Notes under the pieces: generated by a model
Databases searched by the model: none
What the model was told of the DNA's origin: nothing
Seen by the model: only the letters and a program-made list of their open reading frames with translations
Part shown: positions 5,932-21,197 of the stretch, piece by piece
Layout of the letters: each line of letters opens with the position of its first letter
Numbering within the stretch: position 1 is the stretch's first letter
Made by a program: the position numbers and the translations under genes
Origin: Nitrospirota bacterium
GTDB taxonomy: Bacteria > Nitrospirota > Nitrospiria > JACQBW01
DNA: 64,000 bases
Direction: 5' to 3'
Assembly: GCA_016194305.1 (NCBI GenBank)
Contig: JACQBW010000016.1
Location: 1 to 64,000, forward strand

Positions 5932-5986
5932 TTTTTCAGTGGGAAGTTAGCCTGGATTATCCTGACATCAGGATCGGTTGGGTGAT

Positions 5987-6024
5987 AAGCCGACTCAAGC
6001 ATTCATTTGGGCGGCTTTTTTTTT
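5987..6024 (+). terminator. Intrinsic terminator between copD and dabB
   Basis: AAGCCG (5987-5992), a bulged A and CTC pair with GGG (6009-6011) and CGGCTT (6012-6017), followed by an unbroken T run through 6024. A second perfect hairpin, ATCCTG/CAGGAT, lies at 5959-5974. The position after the copper unit and just before the dabB ribosome site argues that dabB does not start at the upstream in-frame TTG (5978), which would be inside this structure. Confidence 0.75.
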
Positions 6025-6037
6025 GCGGGAGGCTTTT

Positions 6038-8650
6038 TTGATCTTAACCTATTATCCGCTCCTTATTTTTATTGCGCCCCTGATCGCAGGGCTGGTCACC
6101 CTCTTTTTTGGGGGAGTGCTGGGCAAAAAGGTGCATCAGATTGGGGCGGCGGGGCAGGCTTTGTCCTTGGGCGTCTCGCTGCAACATTTTTACAAAGTGA
6201 TTGCGCATGGTCCTGAAAGAATCAATCTTGACCTGTTTTCATTCGCGGCGAGCGGCATTTTCCACTTTGGATTCTATTTCGACCGGCTTTCTTCATTGTT
6301 GATGGTCCATATCACCCTGATCAGCACGCTCATTTATATTTTTTCAAATCGGTATATGCAGCAGGACCGAAATTATACCTGGTTTCTTTCGCTTCTGAGT
6401 CTGACCACGTTTGTCCTCCTCTGCATGATTTCGAGTTCAAACCTCCTGATGCTTTTTTTCTTCTGGCAGCTCTTGAGCTGGTTTCTCTGTCTCCTTTCGT
6501 ATCACTACTCGCACCTTCCCACTGTTCGGGGCGCATTTAGAACCTTTGTGATGCAACGGATCGGAGACGTGGCGTTCTTAATGGGAATTCTTCTCGCATA
6601 CGAACTTTACGGAACATTTGACTTTGTCCAGCTCTTCGACCGGGCCGCCCAGATTAAAACTTCATTTTCCATCTGGCCGGCGGGAGGAATTGAAATGAGT
6701 GGAGCCACGGCCGTCACCTTCCTGATCTTTATTGGCGCAATGAGTAAATCGGCCCAGTTTCCTCTTCATATGTGGCTTCCGGACTCCCTCTATGCTCCCA
6801 CGCCGGTTCATGCTCTGCTTCACGCGGGCATTATCAATGCCGGGGGATTTCTCCTGAACCGCCTTGCTCCGCTGTACGGGCTCTCTTCCTCCACGCTTCA
6901 TTTTGTTTTCGCAACCGGAGTTCTGACGGCGCTGCTGGGCGCAGGAATGATGCTGACCCAGAACGACATTAAAAAAACACTCGGTTATTCCACCATCGGT
7001 CAGATGGGCTATATGATTATGGAGTGCGGCCTCGGAGCCTTTTCTTTGGCGATTTTCCATCTCATTGCGCATGGACTGTTTAAAGGAACGACTTTCCTCA
7101 ACTGTGGACATGTGATTCATGCGACCCGGCAGGAGCCGAGACATCCGCTTAAGGACAACTCGGCAGGAGCCATCGAATTTTCGTTTCTAACCTGGTTGAC
7201 CGGATTCATTACGACCTTGATCCTTCCTCTGATTATTCTCCTCGCCGCCCACGGCGTTCTCAGTCTGCCACTGCGAAACGCACAAGGGGTGGTCATCTTT
7301 CTCTTTTTCAGCTGGGTCACCTCTTCTCAGGCAATCATGACCCTTTACCGATTGCAGGCGGTGGCGTCGCGAAAAGTAGCGGCGCTGATGCTTTTGACGC
7401 TTCTCCTGGTTGTTCTGACCTATCTCCTGGCAGCTCAGGCATTCACCTATTTTCTCTATCCGGACCTGGGAGCCGTTGTTTCTTACTTTCAGGCCGCTGC
7501 GCTTCCCGCTTGGCTTTTTGATGTCATTGTCGAAACAACCGCGCTGGCCGTTATCCTGAACTGGGTATTCATTTATGCACGAAGCCACGGACAATCGCTT
7601 CATATGCCGGCCTGGGTCCGCGGCCTTGAGGACCGTGCCTACCTCTTTTTTATGAATCGGCTTTATCTGGACGCATTGGCCTTCAAACTCCGGACGCTGC
7701 TCTCTCGCTTTTTCATTCGACTGGACAAGACCTGGTTGTTTCCAATCGTGACGATATTCATCGCGGCCGCCTGGTTATTCATGTTCTCCGGAAAGGACTG
7801 GCTGGATCAGATAACAGGACCTGAAGCGATTCTTTTTTTGGGAACTGCTCTCATGGTTCCGCTCTTTCCCTTCCAGGGGATTTACCTCACTGTTCTGTCC
7901 CGTCTTCCGGGTTATTTCTCTCTGGTTTTTGGCCTGCTTATGCCCCTGGCGGGCATGATGAGTCTGGCAAGACTTGTTCCGCAGATGCCGCAATCTTTTC
8001 TGGACGGGGTTGAGACTCTGGCTCTTTTTGGTGTCTTCTATGGATCGATTAAAGCGTTGGCTCAGAACAGACTGAATTTATTGCTGGCTCATGCCGGAAC
8101 CGCCTTCTACGCCTTTCTTTGGTGGCACTGGGCGGTGACTGGATATCTGACACCGCAGGCAGTCGTTTATACCTGCGGGGTGACGCTGGTGATTGGCGGG
8201 CTTCTCCTCGCAGATCTGCGCCTCCGGACGCGTTACGGCAGCCTCGATCTCAATCAGTTAGGGGGCCTGATCAGACCGATGCCTCGTTTTGCGGTCTTGA
8301 CGGTGTTGCTGGTGATGGCAGGGATGGGACTTCCTCCCTTCGGACTCTTCTCGGGTTATGTGGCGATGTTGCTTGAACCGTCCGTTAAATTGGGCTGGGG
8401 ACTTGCGGCTGCTCTGATGACCTGGCTTGTTCCGGTGTGGTATTTATTCCGGTTGATACAGAGACTCCTGTTGGGTCCGCATCGTACGGATCTGGTTTAT
8501 GAGGATTTTACGCCAGCTGAATTCGTACCTCTTCTGGCTATCGTGATGGTGTTGTTGGTCCTGGGCCTGCTGCCGTACGGATTTTTCGAGTCGGATTCAC
8601 TGAAATACAGCTATCAGTCGGCCCTGGAGCTTCTGAAATGGGACAGATAG
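6038..8650 (+). CDS. dabB: DabB: NuoL-like proton-conducting subunit of inorganic carbon uptake system, with C-terminal NuoM-like extension
   Basis: About 870 residues, all membrane. The first 550 or so are NuoL/MrpA-like, with the proton-channel signature KSAQFPLHMWLPDS.YAPTPVHALLHAG and the later TLGYSTIGQMGYM and HGLFKGTTFL helices, as in DabB of DAB-type dissolved inorganic carbon transporters. The last 300 residues look like the C-terminal half of NuoM (LGGLIRPMPRFA, GLPPFGLFSGY), with the usual mid-helix His absent. DabB is normally about 550 residues, so this is an enlarged form. I chose TTG 6038, with GGGAGG five bases upstream, over TTG 5978 inside the terminator. The 3' end overlaps dabA by 13 bases. 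It should use the proton or sodium gradient to drive DabA. Confidence 0.85.
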   Translation: MILTYYPLLIFIAPLIAGLVTLFFGGVLGKKVHQIGAAGQALSLGVSLQHFYKVIAHGPERINLDLFSFAASGIFHFGFYFDRLSSLLMVHITLISTLIYIFSNRYMQQDRNYTWFLSLLSLTTFVLLCMISSSNLLMLFFFWQLLSWFLCLLSYHYSHLPTVRGAFRTFVMQRIGDVAFLMGILLAYELYGTFDFVQLFDRAAQIKTSFSIWPAGGIEMSGATAVTFLIFIGAMSKSAQFPLHMWLPDSLYAPTPVHALLHAGIINAGGFLLNRLAPLYGLSSSTLHFVFATGVLTALLGAGMMLTQNDIKKTLGYSTIGQMGYMIMECGLGAFSLAIFHLIAHGLFKGTTFLNCGHVIHATRQEPRHPLKDNSAGAIEFSFLTWLTGFITTLILPLIILLAAHGVLSLPLRNAQGVVIFLFFSWVTSSQAIMTLYRLQAVASRKVAALMLLTLLLVVLTYLLAAQAFTYFLYPDLGAVVSYFQAAALPAWLFDVIVETTALAVILNWVFIYARSHGQSLHMPAWVRGLEDRAYLFFMNRLYLDALAFKLRTLLSRFFIRLDKTWLFPIVTIFIAAAWLFMFSGKDWLDQITGPEAILFLGTALMVPLFPFQGIYLTVLSRLPGYFSLVFGLLMPLAGMMSLARLVPQMPQSFLDGVETLALFGVFYGSIKALAQNRLNLLLAHAGTAFYAFLWWHWAVTGYLTPQAVVYTCGVTLVIGGLLLADLRLRTRYGSLDLNQLGGLIRPMPRFAVLTVLLVMAGMGLPPFGLFSGYVAMLLEPSVKLGWGLAAALMTWLVPVWYLFRLIQRLLLGPHRTDLVYEDFTPAEFVPLLAIVMVLLVLGLLPYGFFESDSLKYSYQSALELLKWDR

Positions 8651-11600
8651 AAAAAGCGCCCTATAGCGAAACCCGGCGGATGCAGCTGCGAGGAATCACC
8701 CTACTCGCAAGCGAAATCATCTCTCAATACTGGCCGATGCGCACCTTTGTCCACCACAATCCCTTGCATAATCTGGAAGACCTTCATTTTGAGGAGGCGG
8801 TCAGGCGGGGAGAGGTCTTGTTGGGAGGCCGGGGTTATTTATCCAATTCGCTTTTTCGAAGTTATGTTCAAGCAGGCAGAATTCGCCTGGACGCGATCGA
8901 AAACGCGCTCAAGACGATTGTTAAGGAAAAAGCCGTGACGCTGGGCACGCGGGATATAAATCAAATAGAAGTGCTTCGTACCCATCTCCTCTGCGGAATC
9001 TCGGCCCCTGTCGACGAGATACTTGAGGCCCGGATTCAGCGCCGTCCGGATCGTCATGATATTCAGTCTCTGGCCGATCATCTCGCTTTGGGGCTCCACT
9101 TTCAGGAAGCAGAGAAAATAAGGGAGTCTCCTGGACGGGAAAAAAGAGGCCCACTTGGAATCAGGTCCACTCTTTCGGCCTGGTGCGATGATACCTTTGG
9201 AAGCCAGATCATGGATCTGATTAATCGCGAATCGGTGAAATGGTGTGAGGCCTATTTAGACGAGGGGCATGCGACCTGGCCCCTCCCTGGCCGGGAGAAG
9301 GGATTCTACGGAACCTGGCAATTTCTGGCGGAACAGGAATTCTCGCCTTGCGGAATTTTAGAAAGTGGGAAGAAAATAGCAGCCTTGCCCACTTCTCCGG
9401 AAGATGCCCTACTTGAACATCTTCTTGTGCTCGGTATCCCATTTGAACATTGGCAGGATTATCTGACGCTCCATTTAGCGGCTTTACCGGGCTGGGCAGG
9501 TTTTATCAAATGGCGGGCCGACCAGAGCGAATATGAATGGCAGCAAGTCTATCCCGTTGATCTGGTCCAGTATCTTGCGGTGCGTCTTTGGTATGAACGC
9601 GAACTGGTTCAGAAAATCAGTCCGGAAAAAAGGGGTGCCGAAGATCTTTACGCTAGAATGTTTTCCGATCATATGCAAAAGGAAAAATCCGGTCAGAATT
9701 CCCGCCTGAATGCCTCCTGGAGACTAATCGACCTTGCCCACAGGCTCGAAATGGGTACGGAATCTCTGTTAAACTCTCCGTCTGAACGCCTGGAAGTCCT
9801 TTTAGATTGGCTAGATGGTTTCCCGGAATCGGAGCATGGTTTCATCTGGCTCAGGGCATTCGAATCTGGGTACCAGGAAAAGCTCGTGACTCAACTCAGA
9901 ACCAATCTCCAAAAAGAACGGGATGGAGGAGAGGCGGGTTCTGATGAAATGCGTAAAATCAGGCCCCAGGCACAAGCGATATTCTGTATTGATGTGCGAT
10001 CAGAATCCCTAAGACGCCATTTGGAATTGGTCGGAGACTATGAGACCCTTGGATTTGCCGGTTTCTTTACTGTTTTTATCCGATTTAGAGCTCTGGGTAG
10101 CCACCATGATACTTTTCAGTTTCCGGTGATTATGAAGGCCAAGAACGCGGTACGGGAAGTTCCGCGTACCTTTCAGGGTCAGATGCTCACCCGGCACCAG
10201 TCGGGCGCCAGGTGGCTCCATGCAGGCCACGAACTCTTGCATGACCTGAAAGAGAATATGGTTACACCCTATGTGACGGTAGAATCTCTTGGTTGGTTTT
10301 ACAGCCTGCCGATGATTGGTAAGACGCTCTTTGTAGACGGATATCGCAGGCTGACATCCCGACTTCGACGGATTTTTGTGCCTCCAGTGGCCACCAGCCT
10401 GACGGTGGAGAAATTGTCACGGGAAGAGGTCAATGAGATGCTCGCTTCTGAACAGCGTGCAACCATCCGGCGCGCACTGAACGAACGTTTCGGCGATCGT
10501 GAATTGAATCTTTCATTAGAGAGACTGGAAGGTCTTCGCCTTCGTGCGCTCGATGATCCGGGAGCGGGAGAGCACACTTCGAGAAATCCTTCCCATTCGT
10601 ATGCGCTAACCCCTGACGAAGAATCGAATTTTGTCGAAACGCTTAGGAGTGAGTTCCGAATTAATCCGGGCTGGGCATTTGCCAGAATGGAGCGCATTAC
10701 CCAGACCGGTTTTACGTTGAGCGAACAAGTTTTCACGGTCGAGACCGCTCTCAAGATGATGGGGCTGACCCGGAATTTTGCGCGTCTTGTCCTCCTCTGC
10801 GGCCACAACAGTATATCCGAAAATAATCCCTTTGAAGCTGCTCTGGATTGCGGCGCCTGCGGCGGAAATGGAGGGAAACCCAATGCCCGGGTACTCGCGG
10901 CCATGGCCAATAAACCTCAAGTCCGTGAGCATCTCGGAAAAAGCGGGATCATGATACCTCAGGATACCTTTTTTATCGCGGGTCAACATGATACCGTGAC
11001 GGATGAAGTGGAATTGTTCGATCTGGAAGATCTTCCGCCCACTCATCTGAACGACCTCCTCCGTCTGATTCGGGACTTGAAGGAAGCCGGATTTCGCAAT
11101 AGCCGCGAACGGTGTGCACGGTTTCCCGAGCTAAAATCTCCATTGTCTCTTGCCAGAGCGGGGAGGGAGGTCAGAAGACGAAGTGGTGACTGGAGCCAGG
11201 TTCGCCCCGAATGGGGGCTTTCGGGCAATGCGGCTTTTATTATCGGTCGTCGCATTCTCACCCGGGGCATTGATCTGGAGGGGAGGGTTTTTCTCCATTC
11301 TTATGATTGGCGCCAGGATTCGACCGGACGCCTGCTGGAGATTTTGATGACAGCGCCCCAGGTCGTGGGACAATGGATCAATATGGAGCACTACTTTTCG
11401 ACAGTCGATAATGAGGTCTACGGGAGCGGAAGCAAGATTTATCATAATGTCGTCGGCAGAATCGGAATTATGTCAGGACCGCAGAGTGATCTGCGGACAG
11501 GACTGGCTACCCAGACAGTGATGAATGGAATGCGACCTTACCACGAACCGATGAGGTTGTTGACGCTTATTGAAGCGCCAAGGGAAAGGATTATCGGAAT

Positions 11601-11781
11601 CATTCAGCGGCATCGTCTCTTAAAGAATTATTATGACAACGGTTGGGTCCAGTTGATGGCGCTTGAACCGGAGGAGAAAAATTTCTATCTCTATCTTCCG
11701 AAACAAGGTTGGAACCCCATGAAATTGGAAACGCCCATTCCATATCCCAAATTGAAAACCAAAAAGGAGCCTTTTATATGA
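8638..11781 (+). CDS. dabA: DabA: zinc-dependent carbonic anhydrase-like subunit of DAB inorganic carbon uptake (DUF2309/UPF0753)
   Basis: 1047 residues, cytoplasmic, no membrane segments. The beta-carbonic-anhydrase-like zinc site is intact: C450 and D452 in FCIDVR, H723 in LLCGHNS, and C738 in LDCGACGG. The 2- and 15-residue spacings match the zinc ligands of characterised DabA. The protein is thought to hydrate CO2 to bicarbonate one way, energised by DabB, and so concentrates inorganic carbon for autotrophic growth. The start overlaps dabB by 13 bases and the stop overlaps the PII-like gene (ATGA), so the three are translationally coupled. Confidence 0.92.
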   Translation: MGQIEKAPYSETRRMQLRGITLLASEIISQYWPMRTFVHHNPLHNLEDLHFEEAVRRGEVLLGGRGYLSNSLFRSYVQAGRIRLDAIENALKTIVKEKAVTLGTRDINQIEVLRTHLLCGISAPVDEILEARIQRRPDRHDIQSLADHLALGLHFQEAEKIRESPGREKRGPLGIRSTLSAWCDDTFGSQIMDLINRESVKWCEAYLDEGHATWPLPGREKGFYGTWQFLAEQEFSPCGILESGKKIAALPTSPEDALLEHLLVLGIPFEHWQDYLTLHLAALPGWAGFIKWRADQSEYEWQQVYPVDLVQYLAVRLWYERELVQKISPEKRGAEDLYARMFSDHMQKEKSGQNSRLNASWRLIDLAHRLEMGTESLLNSPSERLEVLLDWLDGFPESEHGFIWLRAFESGYQEKLVTQLRTNLQKERDGGEAGSDEMRKIRPQAQAIFCIDVRSESLRRHLELVGDYETLGFAGFFTVFIRFRALGSHHDTFQFPVIMKAKNAVREVPRTFQGQMLTRHQSGARWLHAGHELLHDLKENMVTPYVTVESLGWFYSLPMIGKTLFVDGYRRLTSRLRRIFVPPVATSLTVEKLSREEVNEMLASEQRATIRRALNERFGDRELNLSLERLEGLRLRALDDPGAGEHTSRNPSHSYALTPDEESNFVETLRSEFRINPGWAFARMERITQTGFTLSEQVFTVETALKMMGLTRNFARLVLLCGHNSISENNPFEAALDCGACGGNGGKPNARVLAAMANKPQVREHLGKSGIMIPQDTFFIAGQHDTVTDEVELFDLEDLPPTHLNDLLRLIRDLKEAGFRNSRERCARFPELKSPLSLARAGREVRRRSGDWSQVRPEWGLSGNAAFIIGRRILTRGIDLEGRVFLHSYDWRQDSTGRLLEILMTAPQVVGQWINMEHYFSTVDNEVYGSGSKIYHNVVGRIGIMSGPQSDLRTGLATQTVMNGMRPYHEPMRLLTLIEAPRERIIGIIQRHRLLKNYYDNGWVQLMALEPEEKNFYLYLPKQGWNPMKLETPIPYPKLKTKKEPFI

Positions 11782-12119
11782 CAGGTCTTACGCTTTATCC
11801 CATGAAGGAAATCAGGATCATTTTTCAGGGAGAACATTTAAAATTTGTGACGGATATGCTGGACAAAGGTCAGGTCACAGGCTATACGATTATTCACAAC
11901 GTCTCGGGCAAAGGTCATCATGGGTTTCATACCGCCCATCCGATGTTCAATGAGATGGACAGCCTGGTGATGTTAATGGCGGTCGTAGTGCAGGAAAAGG
12001 TCGAACCGATTCTGGCCGGACTCATCCCGCTGTTCGATCGCTACACCGGAGTCATGTTTGTCTCGGATGTGGCGGTGAGCCGGCGCGACTATTTTTCCGC
12101 TCCTTCCGGAGGAAAGTAA
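11778..12119 (+). CDS. PII-like protein of the dab operon
   Basis: 113 residues with a ferredoxin-like beta-alpha-beta layout typical of PII-like proteins: KEIRIIFQGEHLKFVTDMLDKGQVTGYTII, then a short T-loop with GKGHHGFH, then VVVQEKVEPILAGL and a final strand VMFVSDVAV. The classical PII uridylylation Tyr motif is not visible. PII-like genes commonly accompany dabAB and other carbon transporters and are presumed to gate them by nucleotide or bicarbonate sensing. The start ATG overlaps the dabA stop, with AAGGAG 8 bases upstream. The sensed ligand is unknown. Confidence 0.8.
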   Translation: MTGLTLYPMKEIRIIFQGEHLKFVTDMLDKGQVTGYTIIHNVSGKGHHGFHTAHPMFNEMDSLVMLMAVVVQEKVEPILAGLIPLFDRYTGVMFVSDVAVSRRDYFSAPSGGK

Positions 12120-12257: not shown

Positions 12258-12893
12258 ATGGAAATTGAATATAAGAATTATCGGGTAGAATCCGGTCCGG
12301 AAGCCTTTCTACCTCCTGCTGCAGCCTGTGTCGGGATTACACTCCCTGACCCGGGAGAGGGCCATGTGCATGGGGTCATTGTCTCTGAAGATATTGCCCT
12401 GGAAGCCGCTGCAAAGGCCCTTTTACAAGCCAATGTCCCGACTATTTTCCCGGGACCTTTGATACTCTGGGAATGGAATGATCATGTTGCGGATAAAGCA
12501 AAGACGTTGAGACAGCTCTATGAAGAGCTCAAGGTCTATAAACCGACAGCGCTTTTGATTCCGATGCCTGACTACCGGCCCAAATATCCAAAAATCAATC
12601 CGGAAGTTGAAATTAATCCGAACCATCCTAATTTGACGATCTGGCATAACAAAATTGATGCCTGTATTTTTATAGGAGTTCATTGTCATCAGGCCAATCT
12701 TTCGCTGAAGATTATTCGAGGGGGAACAAATTGTTTCACCATCGCGCTCTGTGCTCAGGCAGGCCACGAAGATGCCATGGTCTCGGTGAGGGACAATGAT
12801 GTCCAGCAGATCAACAAACTGAGAGCAATCTTGAAAAAAGTGGCAGAGTCTCCAGAATTTGCCGGAAAATTAGGAAAAAAGGCGTCATCGTAA
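12258..12893 (+). CDS. CODH-beta/oxoacid:ferredoxin oxidoreductase accessory-like protein, first copy
   Basis: 211 residues, soluble. It starts at ATG 12258, five bases after AAAGGAG. It belongs to the group usually annotated carbon monoxide dehydrogenase beta subunit family; similar proteins are, as I recall, found with five-subunit 2-oxoacid:ferredoxin oxidoreductases of Nitrospirota and Aquificota. Motifs shared with the next gene are FPGPLI.W.W, IPMPDYRP.YPKI.PE, HPNLTI.HNKI.AC, GVHCH.AN, and GTNC.TIALCA.AGHEDAM. No CxxC iron-sulfur motif is present. No CODH or oxidoreductase catalytic subunit is in the window. The exact function is not established; I am sure of the paralogy and less sure of the family name. 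Confidence 0.65.
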   Translation: MEIEYKNYRVESGPEAFLPPAAACVGITLPDPGEGHVHGVIVSEDIALEAAAKALLQANVPTIFPGPLILWEWNDHVADKAKTLRQLYEELKVYKPTALLIPMPDYRPKYPKINPEVEINPNHPNLTIWHNKIDACIFIGVHCHQANLSLKIIRGGTNCFTIALCAQAGHEDAMVSVRDNDVQQINKLRAILKKVAESPEFAGKLGKKASS

Positions 12894-12921
12894 AAGAGGG
12901 TTTAAGAAAGGAGTTTTGAAC

Positions 12922-13659
12922 ATGCCTACCGATTTGGAACAATATCGGGTATTACCCGGACCCGAAGGAATACTTCCTCCCGCAGCCGCCTATATGGGCG
13001 TTCTTTTACCGGAAGAGGGGCAAGGATTGCTGGAAGGGGACCTTGTGAATGAAGAGAAAGCGATGGAAGCGGGTGCGATAGCGATGCTTACCCGGAAAAA
13101 TCCGACGCTTTTCCCCGGCCCGCTGATTGTCTGGGGATGGGATGCACATACGAACGAGAAAGCCAAAATTGTATTGGAAATTGCTCAGGAAATTCCCGGC
13201 GTCAGGATTATTCCGATGCCGGACTATCGTCCCATTTATCCTAAAATCGACCCGGAGGCGGTGATCAATCCCTGCCATCCTAATTTGACCATTTTGCACA
13301 ATAAAATCGAGGCGTGTGTTCTGGTCGGTGTTCATTGTCATTATGCAAACGTGACGCTCAAAATGATCCGTGCAGGGACGAACTGCTATACGATCGCACT
13401 CTGTGCCGCGGCAGGTCATGAAGATGCCATGATGTCGGTACCGAATTGTGACAGGGAAAAACTGATTAAGTTCAGAAATGCTTTAAGAAGAGTCAAAAAG
13501 AACGGCGTTAAACCGAAGTATGAAGGAAAAGGCATTATTCCTTCATCTGCCTATCAAAGCGCAAGACTCACCGGTCAGGACTTTCATCCGGTTCCTGAGG
13601 CAGAGGCGCATGGTTTGGGCCACGATCTCGAAAAAGGTCTGGACGAAAACGAAGAGTAA
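12922..13659 (+). CDS. CODH-beta/oxoacid:ferredoxin oxidoreductase accessory-like protein, second copy
   Basis: 245 residues, paralogous along its first 200 residues to the preceding gene, from which it is separated by 28 bases. The same conserved His/Cys signature is kept (GVHCHYAN, TNCYTIALCAAAGHEDAM). It differs by a C-terminal extension of about 45 residues rich in Glu, His and Lys, ending in HGLGHDLEKGLDENEE. AAGAAAGGAG (12904-12913) lies eight bases before ATG 12922, which I prefer over the upstream TTG. The pair may form a heterodimer. Placement between dab and the Ehr-type complex suggests a role in carbon or ferredoxin metabolism, but this is inference. Confidence 0.65.
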   Translation: MPTDLEQYRVLPGPEGILPPAAAYMGVLLPEEGQGLLEGDLVNEEKAMEAGAIAMLTRKNPTLFPGPLIVWGWDAHTNEKAKIVLEIAQEIPGVRIIPMPDYRPIYPKIDPEAVINPCHPNLTILHNKIEACVLVGVHCHYANVTLKMIRAGTNCYTIALCAAAGHEDAMMSVPNCDREKLIKFRNALRRVKKNGVKPKYEGKGIIPSSAYQSARLTGQDFHPVPEAEAHGLGHDLEKGLDENEE

Positions 13660-13842: not shown

Positions 13843-15894
13843 GTGTCAAGAGATCCTTCGCAACTCACTCATACGCTGTTTCTGTGGGTCATCTTTCTTT
13901 ACGGAACTGGCGCAATTCTTCCTTTCCTTTTTCCTCGAAGACCTCATTTACAAAATATCATTGCCCATGGCGTGGCATGGGCCGGGTCAGTTGTTTCGCT
14001 GATACTGGCCGTTTTTGCACTGGGTCTCGACACACCGGCTATATTTTATTCTCCCTCTTCATTTCCTCTGGTGGAGATTCAATTCAGGCTCGATCCTCTG
14101 TCCGCATTCTTTATTCTTCTGATCTCGATGTCGGGAATGGCGGTCTCTCTTTATGCCTTTGAATATGTCCGCAACTTTGAAGGGCGATATCCTGTGGGTC
14201 TGCTCGGAGGGCTTTTTAACGCTTTTCTTCTTTCGATGACTCTGGTGGTCACCGCGGACAATGGTTTTCTTTTTCTTATTCTTTGGGAAATCATGTCGCT
14301 CGTCTCTTATTTTTTGGTGGTCACAGAGCATGAAAAGCCCGAGACGCGCCATGCCGGATTCTTTTATTTCATCATGACGCATTTCGGGACAATTTTTATT
14401 ATGATTTGTTTCGTCATGTATTATCAGCAGAGCGGCACTTTTGACTTTGAGGCCTTTCGGGCTTCCGGAACGGGCATGCCACAGGCAATTCGGACTCTGA
14501 TATTTCTAACCGCACTCGTTGGATTTGGAACCAAGGCCGGGATTGTCCCATTACATCTTTGGCTCCCTTATGCGCATCCTGCCGCCCCATCTCATATCTC
14601 TGCGCTGATGTCCGGCGTGATGATCAAGACTGCGATTTATGGACTCGTGAGGGTCTATTTTGACTTTCTCGGAAATGGTTTCCCCTGGTGGTGGGGATTT
14701 ACTATCCTGGTTATCGGAGCGATTTCAGCTCTGCTGGGGGTCATGTATGCGCTGATGGAACATGATCTGAAAAGCCTGCTCGCCTATCACAGCGTCGAAA
14801 ATATCGGAATCATCCTGATTGGCATAGGATGCAGTATGATTTTTCAATCCTACGGCCTAAAAAGCCTTGCTGCGCTGGGACTTTTGGCGGGCTTGTATCA
14901 CACCATCAATCATGCCATGTTTAAAGGCCTGCTTTTTCTGGGAGCAGGATCCGTCCTGCACAGTACCCACAGCCGGAATATGGAGGAATATGGCGGCCTG
15001 ATTCACAAAATGCCCTGGACAGCCCTCTTTTTCCTCATCGGGGCGCTCTCCATTTCAGCCCTCCCTCCGACGAACGGATTTGTCAGTGAATGGATGATTT
15101 TTCAGTCACTTTTCCTAAGTTTTGAAATTCCCGATCTCCTGATGAAAATCTTCTTGCCGATTGGCGGGGCGATGCTCGCCCTCACAGGGGTCCTGGCCAT
15201 GGTCTGCTTTGCAAAGGCGTTTGGAATCAGTTTTCTGGCAAAGGCACGAAGCGCCCGTTCAAAGCAAGCCGTCGAAGTGCCTCTTCTGATGCGAATCGGT
15301 ATGGGAATCATGGCTCTGTATTGCGTGGTTCTTGGACTCGCTCCTGCCTGGGTGGTTCCGTTACTGGATCGCGTAATTACCCCTTTCACTCAAACGCCCG
15401 TTGCAGGGAGTATGATTTCAAAAGGCGGATGGACACTGGAGCCGATGGGAGCGAAATATGCGAGTATTTCCACGCCCGCATTGACGCTGATCATGTTAGG
15501 CGTGATTCCGGCGACTCTTTTCCTCGCGGTGGCGCTCGGGGGACCTCTTCGAAAACGATTCTACCGAACCTGGGGATGCGGATTAAAACTTCATTCGGGG
15601 ATGGAGTATACGGCAAGCGGGTTTGTCCAGCCGATTCGCCAGATTTTCAGCATGATTTATCGCCCGACGGTAAAACTTGAAACGGAAATGCTGGAACAAT
15701 CCCGATATTTCGCAAAACGAAAAAGATTTGATCTGAGTTTTCAGCCGGTCTTCCAGCTGTATCTATATGATCCGGTTGTCCAGTTTTTTCTGAAGCTGGC
15801 AGACCGCTTTCGCATCATTCATGCCGGAAATCTTCATGTTTATCTGGCGTATATCTTGCTCACCCTTATCATTCTCCTTTTATGGGTGAGATAA
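13843..15894 (+). CDS. Ehr/Hyf-type NuoL/N-like proton-pumping subunit (HyfB-like)
   Basis: 683 residues, about 16 membrane helices. It is an antiporter-like subunit of group 4 hydrogenase-related complexes. Key signatures are the helix with GTKAGIVPLHLWLPYAHPAAPSHISALMSG, containing the conserved Lys and the PAAP turn, then LLAYHSVENIGII, and NHAMFKGLLFLGAG. The C-terminal 100 residues, with MEYTASGFVQPIRQIF, match the HyfB/HycC tail. It starts at GTG 13843 without a clear ribosome site. It is the first of six adjacent complex genes. It should translocate protons or sodium across the inner membrane. Confidence 0.85.
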   Translation: MSRDPSQLTHTLFLWVIFLYGTGAILPFLFPRRPHLQNIIAHGVAWAGSVVSLILAVFALGLDTPAIFYSPSSFPLVEIQFRLDPLSAFFILLISMSGMAVSLYAFEYVRNFEGRYPVGLLGGLFNAFLLSMTLVVTADNGFLFLILWEIMSLVSYFLVVTEHEKPETRHAGFFYFIMTHFGTIFIMICFVMYYQQSGTFDFEAFRASGTGMPQAIRTLIFLTALVGFGTKAGIVPLHLWLPYAHPAAPSHISALMSGVMIKTAIYGLVRVYFDFLGNGFPWWWGFTILVIGAISALLGVMYALMEHDLKSLLAYHSVENIGIILIGIGCSMIFQSYGLKSLAALGLLAGLYHTINHAMFKGLLFLGAGSVLHSTHSRNMEEYGGLIHKMPWTALFFLIGALSISALPPTNGFVSEWMIFQSLFLSFEIPDLLMKIFLPIGGAMLALTGVLAMVCFAKAFGISFLAKARSARSKQAVEVPLLMRIGMGIMALYCVVLGLAPAWVVPLLDRVITPFTQTPVAGSMISKGGWTLEPMGAKYASISTPALTLIMLGVIPATLFLAVALGGPLRKRFYRTWGCGLKLHSGMEYTASGFVQPIRQIFSMIYRPTVKLETEMLEQSRYFAKRKRFDLSFQPVFQLYLYDPVVQFFLKLADRFRIIHAGNLHVYLAYILLTLIILLLWVR

Positions 15895-15907
15895 AAGGAG
15901 CCTGTTA

Positions 15908-16864
15908 TTGAATACAGTTCAAATGACATTCCTGACGCTTTTTCAGGCCATTTTGGTGTTGGCGATATCTCCATTTGTTTCCGGCCTCATACGTAAAATC
16001 AAAGCCCGACTTCAGTGTCGCCGGGGCCCGGCTCTGATTCAACCCTATTACAATCTGGTAAAACTTTTTCGCAAGGAGATTGTCTCCTCGCACGACAGTT
16101 CGTGGATCTTCATCGCGACTCCTTACATCCTTTTTTCTTCCACCCTGACTGCGAGTCTCCTGGTTCCGATTTTTCTTTCGCAGGTGCCTTTTAACTTTGC
16201 GGGTGACATCATTACGGTCGTCTATCTTCTGGCCCTGGGAACATTTTTCCTGATGCTGGCAGGTTTGGATTCGGGTTCCCCTTTTGGAGGGATGGGGAGC
16301 AGCCGGGAGGCGATTGTGGCGGCCTTGACAGAACCCGCAATGATACTCTCTATTTTCGCAGTCGGTCTGACAGCCGGATCGACCAATCTGAGCACCATTG
16401 TCCACAAAATGACCCTTTCAGGCGGAATCATGTCCGACCCTCCTCCGCATCTCTTGGCTCTGGCGGCATTATTTATTGTGACGCTTGCAGAAACCGGCCG
16501 TGTGCCAGTCGATAATCCGGCGACCCATCTGGAACTGACGATGATTCACGAAGGGATGATTCTGGAGTATTCAGGCCGCTATCTGGCGCTCATTGAATGG
16601 GCCTCGGCAATAAAATTGCTCCTTTTCTTAACCCTGATCAGCAATATTTTTGCGCCATGGGGAATTGCGACTGAAATCAATCTTTCTGGCGTGTTCGTTG
16701 GTATCGGTGTCTGGTTGGCCAAGGTCTCCTTTCTCGGGGTTTTGATCAGTGTCATTGAGTCGATGTTTGCCAAACTCAGGCTGTTTCGAATTACGGAGTT
16801 GTTAGGTGTGGCGTTCATTCTTTCGCTCCTTTCTCTTGTTTTTTATTATATTTTGAGGGCCTGA
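15908..16864 (+). CDS. Ehr/Hyf-type NuoH-like membrane subunit (HyfC-like)
   Basis: 318 residues with eight helices. It is the NuoH/HyfC-type subunit that joins the peripheral arm to the membrane arm. The diagnostic stretch ETGRVPVDNPATHLELTMIHEGM (within 193-222) carries the conserved acidic residues of the quinone or proton channel region, and RRGPALIQPYYNLVKLFRKE is also typical. TTG 15908 has AAAGGAG six bases upstream; ATG 15923 is an alternative. It lies 13 bases after the HyfB-like gene. Confidence 0.88.
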   Translation: MNTVQMTFLTLFQAILVLAISPFVSGLIRKIKARLQCRRGPALIQPYYNLVKLFRKEIVSSHDSSWIFIATPYILFSSTLTASLLVPIFLSQVPFNFAGDIITVVYLLALGTFFLMLAGLDSGSPFGGMGSSREAIVAALTEPAMILSIFAVGLTAGSTNLSTIVHKMTLSGGIMSDPPPHLLALAALFIVTLAETGRVPVDNPATHLELTMIHEGMILEYSGRYLALIEWASAIKLLLFLTLISNIFAPWGIATEINLSGVFVGIGVWLAKVSFLGVLISVIESMFAKLRLFRITELLGVAFILSLLSLVFYYILRA

Positions 16865-16871
16865 TTCAGCG

Positions 16872-17534
16872 ATGTTTCGTCCGGACACCGGTTCCCAGTT
16901 TGTGAATATTTTTTCGATGCTTCTCCTGGTTACCACCTTTGCAATCGTTTCCCAGCGAAGACTTTCGGCTTGTGTGGATCTCTTTGCCCTTCAATCCCTC
17001 TTTTTGGGTTTGATTGCGGCTTTGGTCGCCTATTTAACAGGCATACACCACATTTACGTTGCGGCTCTTCTGACCATCGTGATCAAGGCGTTGATCATTC
17101 CACTCATTTTGAAAAAAGTGATTGAACATCTCAATGTGAAGCGCGAGCTGGTTCTCAACATCAATATTCCTGTTTCGCTCTTAATCTGCGGCGCGCTGGT
17201 CATCCTCGCTTTTTCTCTGACCCAGCCGCTCATTTCCCTCGGATTCCTGCTGACAAAAGATTCTCTGGCGGTCGCTCTGGCCATAATCTTAATTGGATTT
17301 TTTACCATGATTTCAAGAAAAAAGGCGGTTTCCCAGGTGATTGGATTTCTGGTCATCGAGAACGGCATTTTCCTGGGAGCGATCGCTGCCGCTTACGGCA
17401 TGCCGCTGATTGTGGAGCTTGGAATTCTTTTTGATGTTCTCGTGGCATCGATCATCACCGGAATTTTTACCAACCGGATACAGGACGCGTTTGATACCAT
17501 CGATGTCAGCCAATTCAAAGGAAAGAAAGAGTAG
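16872..17534 (+). CDS. Ehr/Hyf-type membrane subunit (HyfE-like)
   Basis: 220 residues, six or seven helices. It matches HyfE of hydrogenase-4, a protein with an N-terminal part unique to the group and a NuoK-like C-terminal part (VIGFLVIENGIFLGAIAAAYGMPLIVELGILFDVLV contains two conserved Glu residues). It follows the HyfC-like gene by seven bases and precedes the HyfF-like gene by four. It is an integral part of the membrane arm. Confidence 0.85.
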   Translation: MFRPDTGSQFVNIFSMLLLVTTFAIVSQRRLSACVDLFALQSLFLGLIAALVAYLTGIHHIYVAALLTIVIKALIIPLILKKVIEHLNVKRELVLNINIPVSLLICGALVILAFSLTQPLISLGFLLTKDSLAVALAIILIGFFTMISRKKAVSQVIGFLVIENGIFLGAIAAAYGMPLIVELGILFDVLVASIITGIFTNRIQDAFDTIDVSQFKGKKE

Positions 17535-17538
17535 AAAA

Positions 17539-19089
17539 ATGACGGTATCCCAAATGATTTTGATCCTGCTGATATCGCCTCTTCTTGCAGGGATTTTGAG
17601 CCTCGGATTTCGCACTCCGAAAATACTCCATGGCATTAACTTTGTGACGATTGTCATCCTGGCTGCCTTTCAGTTTCTGCTGACACGGGAGCTCCTGAAG
17701 AACGGTTCATTTTTTGTTTTTCATCGCTTTTTTGCTGTGGATGCCTTGTCTTTATTTGTGCTCCTGATTGTCACGTCAGTTGGATTTACCTCTTCCATTT
17801 ACGCATGGTCCTATCTCAACCGCCATCTTGTTCAGGGGAATATTTCGTCTAAAAGGTTAAGCCGGTATTTTTTTCTCTTTCATATGTTTATGCTCACGAT
17901 GATATTGGCGATTCTTGCCAACAACCTCGGTATTCTTTGGGTTGCCATCGAAGGGACGACTTTGGCGACGACTTTTCTCATCAATTTCTTCAAGCTCAAA
18001 TCTTCACTTGAAGCGGGTTGGAAATATCTGATTCTTTGTTCGGTCGGAATCGCCCTGGCTCTTTTTGGAACCGTTCTCATGTTTCTTTCTTCCGCCCGTG
18101 CGCTGGGCGAATCCAATGCGGCGCTTGAAATATCAGAGCTCATCCGGGTAGCCGGCCAGCTTGACTCCCATGCAATTAAACTGGCCTTTATTTTTATACT
18201 GATCGGCTATGGGTCTAAAATAGGGTGGGTGCCGATGCATACCTGGGTGCCGGAGGCTTACGCTGAGGCGCCGGCGCCTGTTTCCGCCATGCTGGCGGGG
18301 GTTTTGGAGACGGTTGCTTTTTACGCGGTGTTAAGAGTCAAGACGGTTGTTGATGCGGTTGTGCCATCCGGATTTGCCGGATATCTCCTGATTTTGTTCG
18401 GGTTTCTTTCGTTTGGTGTCGCGGCCCTATTTATCCTCGTTCAGCGGGATTATAAGAAACTCTTTGCCTATTCCAGTATCGAACACATGGGTATTTCGGC
18501 GATCGGATTCGGGATCGGCAGTTTTCTCGGAAGCTTTGGAGCCCTGTTTCATCTTTTCAATCATGCCATTTCCAAATCGCTGGCTTTCTTTGCAGCAGGT
18601 AATATTCACACGTTATTTGGAACCCGAGAGATGAATAAGGTAACGGGTCTGGCGAAAAGAGATCCCGTGACGGCGCTTGCTTTCCTGGCGGCAGGATTGT
18701 CACTGGTCGGGATGCCCCCCTTTGCGATGTTTGTCAGTGAATATTCGGTGGTCGCCGCTCTGGCCACACAGATTTATCATACCGACACCTTTCACTTTGG
18801 AAAATTCATGACCCTCATCGTTTCCAATGAAGTCCGCAGTCTTGCCCTTGTATCCTTGTTTCTCCTCGTGAGCCTGATCGTATTCGGGGGATTCATGTTC
18901 CGCGTCCTGGGCATGCTTTGGGGGAACCCTTCGATATCCCCTCCAGCGGATCGTTATTTCAAAGTCGCCAATATTCCCCTCCTGATGAGTATCGCTGTGA
19001 TTCTCTTCATGGGAATCGTACTTCCGCCGTCGTTGAAGGAAGTCATGAATCTTGCTGTGACGATTTTAGTCGGAGGAAGACATGGCTGA
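17539..19089 (+). CDS. Ehr/Hyf-type NuoN/NuoL-like subunit (HyfF-like)
   Basis: 516 residues, about 14 helices. It is a second antiporter-like subunit with SKIGWVPMHTWVPEAYAEAPAPVSAMLAG, KLFAYSSIEHMGI and HLFNHAISKSLAFFAAGN, as in HyfF. The ATG at 17539 is preceded by GAAAGAAAGAG and lies four bases after the HyfE-like stop. The last eight bases overlap the start of the large-subunit-like gene, consistent with coupled translation. With the HyfB-like protein it gives this complex two ion-pumping modules. Confidence 0.87.
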   Translation: MTVSQMILILLISPLLAGILSLGFRTPKILHGINFVTIVILAAFQFLLTRELLKNGSFFVFHRFFAVDALSLFVLLIVTSVGFTSSIYAWSYLNRHLVQGNISSKRLSRYFFLFHMFMLTMILAILANNLGILWVAIEGTTLATTFLINFFKLKSSLEAGWKYLILCSVGIALALFGTVLMFLSSARALGESNAALEISELIRVAGQLDSHAIKLAFIFILIGYGSKIGWVPMHTWVPEAYAEAPAPVSAMLAGVLETVAFYAVLRVKTVVDAVVPSGFAGYLLILFGFLSFGVAALFILVQRDYKKLFAYSSIEHMGISAIGFGIGSFLGSFGALFHLFNHAISKSLAFFAAGNIHTLFGTREMNKVTGLAKRDPVTALAFLAAGLSLVGMPPFAMFVSEYSVVAALATQIYHTDTFHFGKFMTLIVSNEVRSLALVSLFLLVSLIVFGGFMFRVLGMLWGNPSISPPADRYFKVANIPLLMSIAVILFMGIVLPPSLKEVMNLAVTILVGGRHG

Positions 19090-20674
19090 ATTCAGGGAAG
19101 CGCTTGAGGAATTTTCCAGGAGATTTAAAAACCTGATCCTTTCCCGTGAGATGGTGACTGGCATACCTGTCTATCATATCGGAAAGGAGTCGCTTCCCGA
19201 GATTGCGCTCTATTTGATTCACCACCCCAACCTGGCTGGGACCTTGTCCATGGAATGGGCGGCTGATCTGCGTCCCATGAAGGAGAGTTACCGCATTTAT
19301 ACCCTTTTTTCGTTGATGAAGAAAGGATTCTGGATGATACTCACTCTGGATATATCGGGAAAGGAGCGTCTCTACCCATCGATCACTCCCCGAATTCACG
19401 GGGCCAAATGGTATGAAAGGGAGATTCGGGATATGTTCGGTCTGATCGCGGATGGTCATCCAGATCTGAGGCGGTTGGTGCGGCATGAACATTGGCCCAA
19501 AGGGACGCATCCTTTAAAAAAGGATTTTACCTGGAACACGACGCTGGAGCAAAAGGACGGGACTTACCTTTATCGACATATTGAAGGTGAAGGGGTTTTT
19601 GAAGTGCCGGTCGGACCGATACACGCGGGAATTATCGAGCCCGGTCATTTTCGATTTTCGGTGGCCGGGGAGCCGATCATGCAGTTGGAAATCCGTCTCT
19701 TTTGGAAGCATCGGGGCATTGAAAAGCTCTTCGAAAATTTACACCTGTTGAACGGAGTCCCGCTGGCGGAAAAAGTCTCGGGGGATACGACCTACGGACA
19801 CAGTCTCTGTTATTGCCAGGCCGTAGAGTCTCTCCTTGCGCTTGACGTTCCTCTTCGTGCGCAATACCTCAGATCACTCTTTCTGGAAATGGAACGGCTC
19901 CACAATCACCTCGGCGATATTGGCGCAATCTGCAACGATGCGGCCTATGCACTCGCACTGGCTCACTGCGGCCGGATGAAGGAGCAGGTCATGCAGCTGA
20001 ATGATCGATTGGCAGGACACCGGTTCCTGCGGGGTGTGAACAGGATCGGCGGGGTCACTCTTGACCTTGAAGAAGCTCAACTCGAGGGAATCGTATCCGT
20101 GATGAGTGAAATCGAAAAAGATTTCAGGGAACTTTCAAATATCTTATTTGTCAATGCTTCTCTCACTGATCGGCTGGAGACGACCGGATTGCTGAAAGAG
20201 CGCACTGCAAGAGATCACGGGGCTGTCGGTGTTGTTGCCAGAGCCTCCAATATCGATCGCGATGTCCGTCGGGACCATCCCTTTGCCGCTTACGGCAAAC
20301 TAAACATTAAAATACCGGTTTTTCAATACGGCGATGTCAGGGCAAGAGTGCGTGTGCGAATCGAAGAGACTTTTGAATCGTTGTCCATCATTCAGAGGAT
20401 TTGCCAGGAGCTGCCCGGAGGATCTGTGACAGTCGATTCGAACAAAGAAGCAAGTCCCGGAGAATGGAGCTTGTCGGCGGTAGAAGGATGGAGGGGCGAA
20501 ATCCTTTATTTTGTGATGGCCGGAGAAAATGGGATGATTCATCGATGTAAGGTGAGGGATCCATCCTTTGTCAATTGGCCCGCGCTTCAATATGCGGTGC
20601 TCGGAAATATTGTTCCCGACTTTCCGGTGATCAATAAAAGTTTTAACCTGTCCTATTCGGGCAACGATTTATAG
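19082..20674 (+). CDS. Ehr-type large subunit: NuoC-NuoD fusion related to HyfG, NiFe ligands missing
   Basis: 530 residues. About 1-165 is NuoC-like (HGAKWYEREIRDMFGL...HP), the rest is NuoD/HyfG-like. In true hydrogenases four Cys bind NiFe (RxCGxC and DPCxxC). Here the first motif reads KVSGDT (S233, T236) and the second DPSFVN (S495, N498), so all four are lost and this cannot be a NiFe hydrogenase. The surrounding helix GHSLCYCQAVE and the tail NWPALQYAV are well kept, so the protein is not decayed. This is the hallmark of energy-converting hydrogenase-related (Ehr) complexes. The electron donor and acceptor are unknown. Confidence 0.88.
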   Translation: MAEFREALEEFSRRFKNLILSREMVTGIPVYHIGKESLPEIALYLIHHPNLAGTLSMEWAADLRPMKESYRIYTLFSLMKKGFWMILTLDISGKERLYPSITPRIHGAKWYEREIRDMFGLIADGHPDLRRLVRHEHWPKGTHPLKKDFTWNTTLEQKDGTYLYRHIEGEGVFEVPVGPIHAGIIEPGHFRFSVAGEPIMQLEIRLFWKHRGIEKLFENLHLLNGVPLAEKVSGDTTYGHSLCYCQAVESLLALDVPLRAQYLRSLFLEMERLHNHLGDIGAICNDAAYALALAHCGRMKEQVMQLNDRLAGHRFLRGVNRIGGVTLDLEEAQLEGIVSVMSEIEKDFRELSNILFVNASLTDRLETTGLLKERTARDHGAVGVVARASNIDRDVRRDHPFAAYGKLNIKIPVFQYGDVRARVRVRIEETFESLSIIQRICQELPGGSVTVDSNKEASPGEWSLSAVEGWRGEILYFVMAGENGMIHRCKVRDPSFVNWPALQYAVLGNIVPDFPVINKSFNLSYSGNDL

Positions 20675-20690
20675 GTTTTGAAGGAGACTT

Positions 20691-21197
20691 ATGTTTCGAA
20701 TTATAAAAAAGAGCTTAAGAAAGGGGATCGTTACCGGAACCTATCCGGAATCAGGAATGCCGGCTCCTGAAATTTCTGATCCCCTTAAAAAAAAGATGAA
20801 GCTATTCAAGCGTTCCCTGACGATCCGCGAGGTCGATACCGGATCGTGCAACGGGTGCGAAATGGAGATGAACGCGTTGATCAATTCAATTTACGATGCA
20901 GAGCGGTTTGGCATTCAGATTGCGGCGTCGCCCCGGCACGCCGACGCCCTGGTCGTGACCGGCCCCGTGACCGTGAACATGCAAAGCGCGTTAAAGAATG
21001 TTTACCGGATGACCCCTGATCCCAAAGTGGTCGTTGCACTGGGAGATTGCGCGATGAACTGCGGGATGTTTAAAGGATGTTATGCCGTGACCGGTCCGGT
21101 ACATAAACATATTCCGGTTGACCTTTCGATTCCCGGCTGTCCGCCCAGGCCGAGTGAAATTCTCGAGAGTCTGCGAACACTCCTGGGCCAGAAATAA
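20691..21197 (+). CDS. Ehr-type small subunit, NuoB/HyfI-like with intact [4Fe-4S] site
   Basis: 168 residues. It keeps the proximal cluster ligands in the hydrogenase arrangement: CNGC (C53, C56), GDC (C120) and GCPPRP (C150). Two more Cys (C124, C130) lie nearby. The first 40 residues are a basic extension before the fold starts at SLTIREVDTGS. AAGGAG lies about eight bases before ATG 20691. As the last gene of the cluster it is followed by a terminator. It would pass electrons to the modified active site or quinone pocket of the large subunit. No NuoI/HyfH ferredoxin-type gene accompanies it. Confidence 0.88.
   Translation: MFRIIKKSLRKGIVTGTYPESGMPAPEISDPLKKKMKLFKRSLTIREVDTGSCNGCEMEMNALINSIYDAERFGIQIAASPRHADALVVTGPVTVNMQSALKNVYRMTPDPKVVVALGDCAMNCGMFKGCYAVTGPVHKHIPVDLSIPGCPPRPSEILESLRTLLGQK

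Follow-up and report, generated by a model that had tools for sequence, protein, structure and literature searches.

A gene pair beside the dab operon of a Nitrospirota bacterium probably supplies the delta subunits absent from its POR and OGOR operons

Two adjacent genes, P1 and P2, are most probably the missing fifth (delta) subunits of the host's 2-oxoacid:ferredoxin oxidoreductases of the POR and OGOR types, relocated beside the dab genes; the family is a known one and its placement here is odd. Both proteins belong to the CO_dh family (PF02552), P1 to its POR-linked and P2 to its OGOR-linked subfamily, and the delta-less catalytic operons lie elsewhere in the genome. The features concerned are listed below by position in the window, that is, the whole stretch of 64,000 nucleotides that was analysed.

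5978..8650, + strand: DabB-like Proton_antipo_M membrane subunit (PF00361, 181 bits), adjoining dabA
8638..11781, + strand: DabA, inorganic carbon transporter subunit (PF10070, 892 bits)
11778..12119, + strand: PII-like protein of the dab operon (PF00543 P-II, 82 bits)
12258..12893, + strand: P1, probable short-type delta subunit (PorD-like) of a five-subunit POR (PF02552, 134.5 bits; POR-linked short-delta clade)
12922..13659, + strand: P2, probable long-type delta subunit (ForD-like) of a five-subunit OGOR (PF02552, 136.5 bits; OGOR-linked long-delta clade)
13525..13659, + strand: C-terminal extension of P2 ending HDLEKGLDENEE (by alignment, the same ending occurs in OGOR-linked deltas)
13843..21197, + strand: operon of a Hyf/Ehr-type membrane complex (HyfB, C, E, F, G and I-like; NCBIfam hydrogenase-4 subunit matches)

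Both reading frames are intact, P1 running from an ATG at 12258 to a stop at 12893 (211 aa) and P2 from an ATG at 12922 to a stop at 13659 (245 aa), with an AGGAG-like ribosome site ahead of each and 28 bases between them. The dabB, dabA and PII-like genes precede the pair on the same strand and the hyf operon follows it. Promoter and terminator scans gave results near chance. With a profile score above the gathering cut-off of 21 bits taken as membership, P1 (E 4e-39, 134.5 bits) and P2 (E 1e-39, 136.5 bits) both fall into PF02552, which bears out an earlier assignment, made in a preliminary description of this DNA, to a CO dehydrogenase beta family tied to 2-oxoacid:ferredoxin oxidoreductases; no NCBIfam model matched either protein in a profile search. 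Over 207 aligned positions the two show 52% identity, and they share, as had been described, a His/Cys signature. None of its residues (H-C-H, C and C; H142, C143, H144, C159 and C165 of P1) varies across an alignment of 51 relatives that span several phyla, so the signature is a family-wide trait and nothing peculiar to the pair. The charged tail of 45 residues attributed to P2 is likewise a real extension, but an ordinary one, because its acidic end, LDENEE, is found in many OGOR-type deltas of the lineage; in the alignment, the ending HDLEKGLDENEE recurs in the OGOR-linked deltas of G036, G020, G007, G012, G026 and other genomes.

Sequence searches of the PDB found no related chain for P1 or for the alignment A1. 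An AlphaFold model of P2 was middling (pLDDT 74), and that of P1, built from a deeper alignment, was better (pLDDT 87). The best Foldseek matches were epsilon chains of CODH/ACS (e.g. 9c0s_C and 3cf4_G), with a probability of 0.99-1.00, an E value of only ~1e-3 and a TM score of ~0.4-0.5; the delta is probably a non-catalytic, Rossmann-like protein with a fold similar to that of the CODH/ACS epsilon subunit. Together with the name of the family, these matches could suggest that P1 and P2 are themselves subunits of a CO dehydrogenase/acetyl-CoA synthase. The epsilon subunit of Methanosarcina (CdhB) does have its Pfam family and the best fold match in common with them, but identity is only ~11-18% at the same TM scores, and the host genome lacks CODH/ACS: a family search of this 95% complete genome returned neither CdhC nor any Prismane/CODH match. 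The absence of the CODH and ACS catalytic genes contradicts such membership and leaves this reading with virtually no probability.

By its named relatives in the whole-genome collection, the host belongs to Nitrospirota, class Nitrospiria, close to Ca. Troglogloeales and Manganitrophaceae. Genes for the reverse TCA cycle are present in most members of the order Ca. Troglogloeales (PMC9040806). In the draft assembly of 37 contigs, which is 95% complete, there are exactly four PF02552 genes, namely P1 and P2 on contig C16 and a second pair on contig C7. The preliminary description had the pair standing without catalytic partners. That holds for the window, where no oxidoreductase subunit is encoded, but not for the genome, in which two alpha-beta-gamma-ferredoxin operons of five-subunit 2-oxoacid:ferredoxin oxidoreductases are present, one of POR type on C19 and one of OGOR type on C33, to which all PF01558 matches are confined. 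The genome thereby encodes, for both enzymes, the matching alpha, beta and gamma subunits and a ferredoxin-like epsilon subunit. Neither operon contains a delta gene, the flanks of both are assembled, and apart from P1 and P2 the assembly has no POR- or OGOR-type delta. Intact por/for clusters relying on other delta copies had been named as a finding that would tell against the preliminary reading; such a finding was made in altered form, in that two operons do exist and lack exactly these deltas. P1 and P2 also depart from placement inside a por or for operon, which is typical of POR/OGOR deltas though not strictly defining, since they lie on C16 and the operons on C19 and C33. Behind the POR operon of G000, G001 and G002 lies the gene of an 86-aa protein with no Pfam match (L048:8204-8464); similar proteins adjoin POR-type operons in other relatives.

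In most genomes of class relatives the delta gene directly adjoins that of alpha in the same operon. The deltas of the class are of two kinds, a short one of ~200-220 aa paired with an alpha of ~400 aa and a long one of ~245-280 aa paired with an alpha of ~415-450 aa; in an alpha tree, C19 groups with the short-delta operons and C33 with the long-delta ones. The long kind can be equated with OGOR because the subunit masses of a cluster in an Aquifex aeolicus MAG (L136; 27.0, 42.9, 32.6, 25.3 and 9.0 kDa) match those published for OGOR (27.6, 42.7, 32.6, 25.5 and 9.0; PMC10052474), and the short kind fits POR, for which the same mass table gives a delta of 21.3 kDa. Two delta trees were built, one of 60 deltas and one of 51 deltas from more phyla. 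P1 was placed in the POR-linked short-delta clade (support 100/98 and 99/95, respectively) and P2 in the OGOR-linked long-delta clade (99/93 and 96/93); by this placement in both trees, the window holds one delta of each type, the very two that the catalytic operons lack. A sister relationship of P1 and P2, as expected of a recent tandem duplication, was rejected (AU p=1.7e-12). The branch leading to P1 is long (0.65-0.88), and P1 may therefore have drifted in function.

The hyf operon begins 183 bases after P2, in the same orientation, hyfB coming directly behind the pair. Its large subunit (window 19082-20674) matches the 49 kDa and 30 kDa families of complex I, but NiFe hydrogenase only weakly, which makes it improbable that the complex is a hydrogenase. 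Elsewhere in the window, a 323-aa protein consisting almost wholly of ankyrin repeats (1917-2888) adjoins an AAA_33/APH-like kinase protein. Delta-like pairs adjoin an orthologous hyf operon in seven relatives (G001, G002, G007, G012, G019, G022 and G025), often with KorA-like and KorB-like genes. These Hyf-linked deltas form clades of their own, and their orthologues in the host are the C7 pair. That pair (L005:8941-10903, G000) lies behind NtrB/NtrC-like genes and encloses a gene for a 145-aa protein that matches PFOR_II only, a remnant of the KorA-like protein. Full KorA and KorB accompany two deltas beside hyf in G007, G012, G022 and G025, in G030 and G037 there is a form of 477-501 aa that lacks the TPP-binding POR_N domain, and PFOR_II stands alone in G000 and G002; the series is one of stepwise loss of catalytic domains with the delta pair kept. 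As the window hyf operon is the orthologue of the one adjoining the other delta pair in G001 and G002, hyf has in the present genome become parted from the genes that usually accompany it, and the closeness of P1 and P2 to it is therefore probably secondary, hyf being probably a genomic neighbour rather than part of the delta pair.

On the other side of the pair, linkage to dab recurs in two phyla. In Aquificota, a delta gene lies within 12 kb of dabA in 16 of 24 dab-bearing genomes (~0.7 expected), and in Nitrospiria in 5 of 28. The counts take no account of kinship, but the arrangements vary from lineage to lineage. Both the OGOR and the POR delta are near dab in four of the Aquificota genomes, and some Hydrogenothermaceae have OGOR-dab-POR islands (L188). 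Of the five in Nitrospiria, one is the present genome; the other four are Manganitrophaceae-like, and in them dab is divergent to the OGOR operon. The loci concerned are window 5978-12119, L092, L095, L112, L114, L152, L153 and L188. In Aquificota and Manganitrophaceae, dab adjoins whole oxidoreductase operons, not lone deltas. It is plausible that dab and the por/for operons were once neighbours and that only the delta genes stayed here.

Three further readings of the pair start from these neighbourhoods. Judged by its position directly before hyfB and by the seven relatives with delta-like pairs and Kor-like genes at that operon, it could work with the Hyf/Ehr complex as an oxidoreductase-Hyf module for electron transfer between ferredoxin and quinone or protons. 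We consider this very unlikely: the host's members of the Hyf-linked clades are on C7, P1 is rejected from the Hyf-linked short deltas (AU p=0.008), P2 has a well-supported place in another clade, though its grouping with the Hyf-linked long deltas is not firmly rejected (AU p=0.067), and a gap separates P2 from hyfB. The trees thus ruled out the Hyf-linked (Kor-type) subfamily, which had been considered on account of the neighbouring hyf genes, with that one reservation for P2. The preliminary description had instead drawn from the missing partners and the gene position a new role for the pair, such as an adaptor between carbon supply and electron supply, here taken as an adaptor or regulatory role between the dab pump and the electron-supply complex. 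The position between dab-PII and hyf, the fast evolution of P1 and the neighbourhood of dab and delta genes far above chance in two phyla are in keeping with such a role, but it is very unlikely to be the right one. P1 and P2 are the POR- and OGOR-type orthologues expected of the C19 and C33 operons, which lack exactly such deltas, so an adaptor is not needed; they retain all family-invariant residues; and comparisons of sequence, trees and neighbourhood gave no sign of a direct adaptor function. Because dab adjoins whole oxidoreductase operons elsewhere, co-regulation of the carboxylases with the carbon pump explains where the pair lies. The proposed tie to carbon supply therefore survives in the linkage of dab to these operons in other lineages, though in a form other than an adaptor. 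That the genes are decaying, unused leftovers of an ancestral dab-POR-OGOR island, of the kind seen in Hydrogenothermaceae, is highly improbable: the long P1 branch and the lack of one or both orthologues in G002 and G001 point that way, but both frames are open with ribosome sites, the invariant residues are kept and so is the conserved C-terminal end of P2.

Detached deltas occur in other genomes as well. The POR delta lies apart from its operon in G007 and G012, and the OGOR delta in G002. Each Nitrospinota genome searched has an OGOR-type operon without a delta and one unlinked long delta (L104, L145, L166, L193, L204-L230), much like the present genome, but only the OGOR delta is detached there and the POR delta remains in its operon, whereas here both are detached. 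In Nitrospina LS_NOB, the orphan long delta adjoins Mrp-like genes and dabA. N. gracilis has been described as lacking the OGOR delta (PMC3578206); the Nitrospinota orphan may be that missing subunit, although in the 51-delta tree these orphans lean towards the Hyf-linked group. Leptospirillum ferriphilum, for which unlinked forD genes were reported in 2008, has two non-identical PF02552 deltas (forD1 and forD2) away from its for operon, as P1 and P2 are, but unlike the present genome it also has a porD within the por cluster (PMC2607301). The PorD/ForD proteins of Aquifex aeolicus and Hydrogenobacter thermophilus resemble P1 and P2 in belonging to PF02552, in their invariant motifs and in forming a short and a long paralogue for POR and OGOR; they are encoded inside the por or for operon, in contrast to the separate locus by dab and hyf described here. 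A search of open papers, a set outside which the main DAB paper (PMC10184468) falls, found no report of linkage between dab and POR/OGOR genes; the pairing of a POR and an OGOR delta at a dab locus appears to be new, and the recurrent linkage of dab to oxidoreductase genes may be new as well. In Aquificota, a fusion protein of 730-790 aa combines lipoate-protein ligase, DUF116 and a C-terminal CO_dh domain (L191:4736-6931, L192:916-3153).

We propose that P1 and P2 would be the deltas of POR and OGOR as enzymes of the reverse TCA cycle, and that their genes would have left the por and for operons to form a two-gene unit behind the dab genes. Acting in trans, their products would combine with the alpha-beta-gamma-epsilon cores in a structural or assembly role and would be needed for the oxygen-tolerant holoenzyme to assemble or remain stable; the siting of the genes would let the deltas of the carboxylases be co-produced with the carbon pump. 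A delta of the PF02552 family was found in the enzyme bands of Aquifex and is a real subunit of the purified enzymes (PMC10052474); according to a passage of PMC3578206 that cites Ikeda 2006, expression of the H. thermophilus enzyme in E. coli depended on the delta, which carries no known cofactor motif. Among relatives, G002, a member of the same family, has an OGOR-type delta and no POR-type one, and in G001 (82% complete) neither was seen, so cells may be able to do without the delta or to replace it. The same POR and OGOR enzymes could also be served by the C7 pair.

The delta, which is peculiar to oxygen-tolerant POR and OGOR, is their enigmatic subunit, and its separation from the enzymes opens its role to in-trans reconstitution. 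Repeated linkage of dab to oxidoreductase genes in both Aquificota and Nitrospirota suggests a role for DAB pumps in serving the carboxylases of the reverse TCA cycle. It is possible, though unlikely, that the delta pair on the dab side marks a physical or regulatory coupling of DAB with POR/OGOR, in which the deltas dock the carboxylases near the pump or set their assembly by carbon supply; if so, the reverse TCA cycle would have in it a simple means of concentrating CO2.
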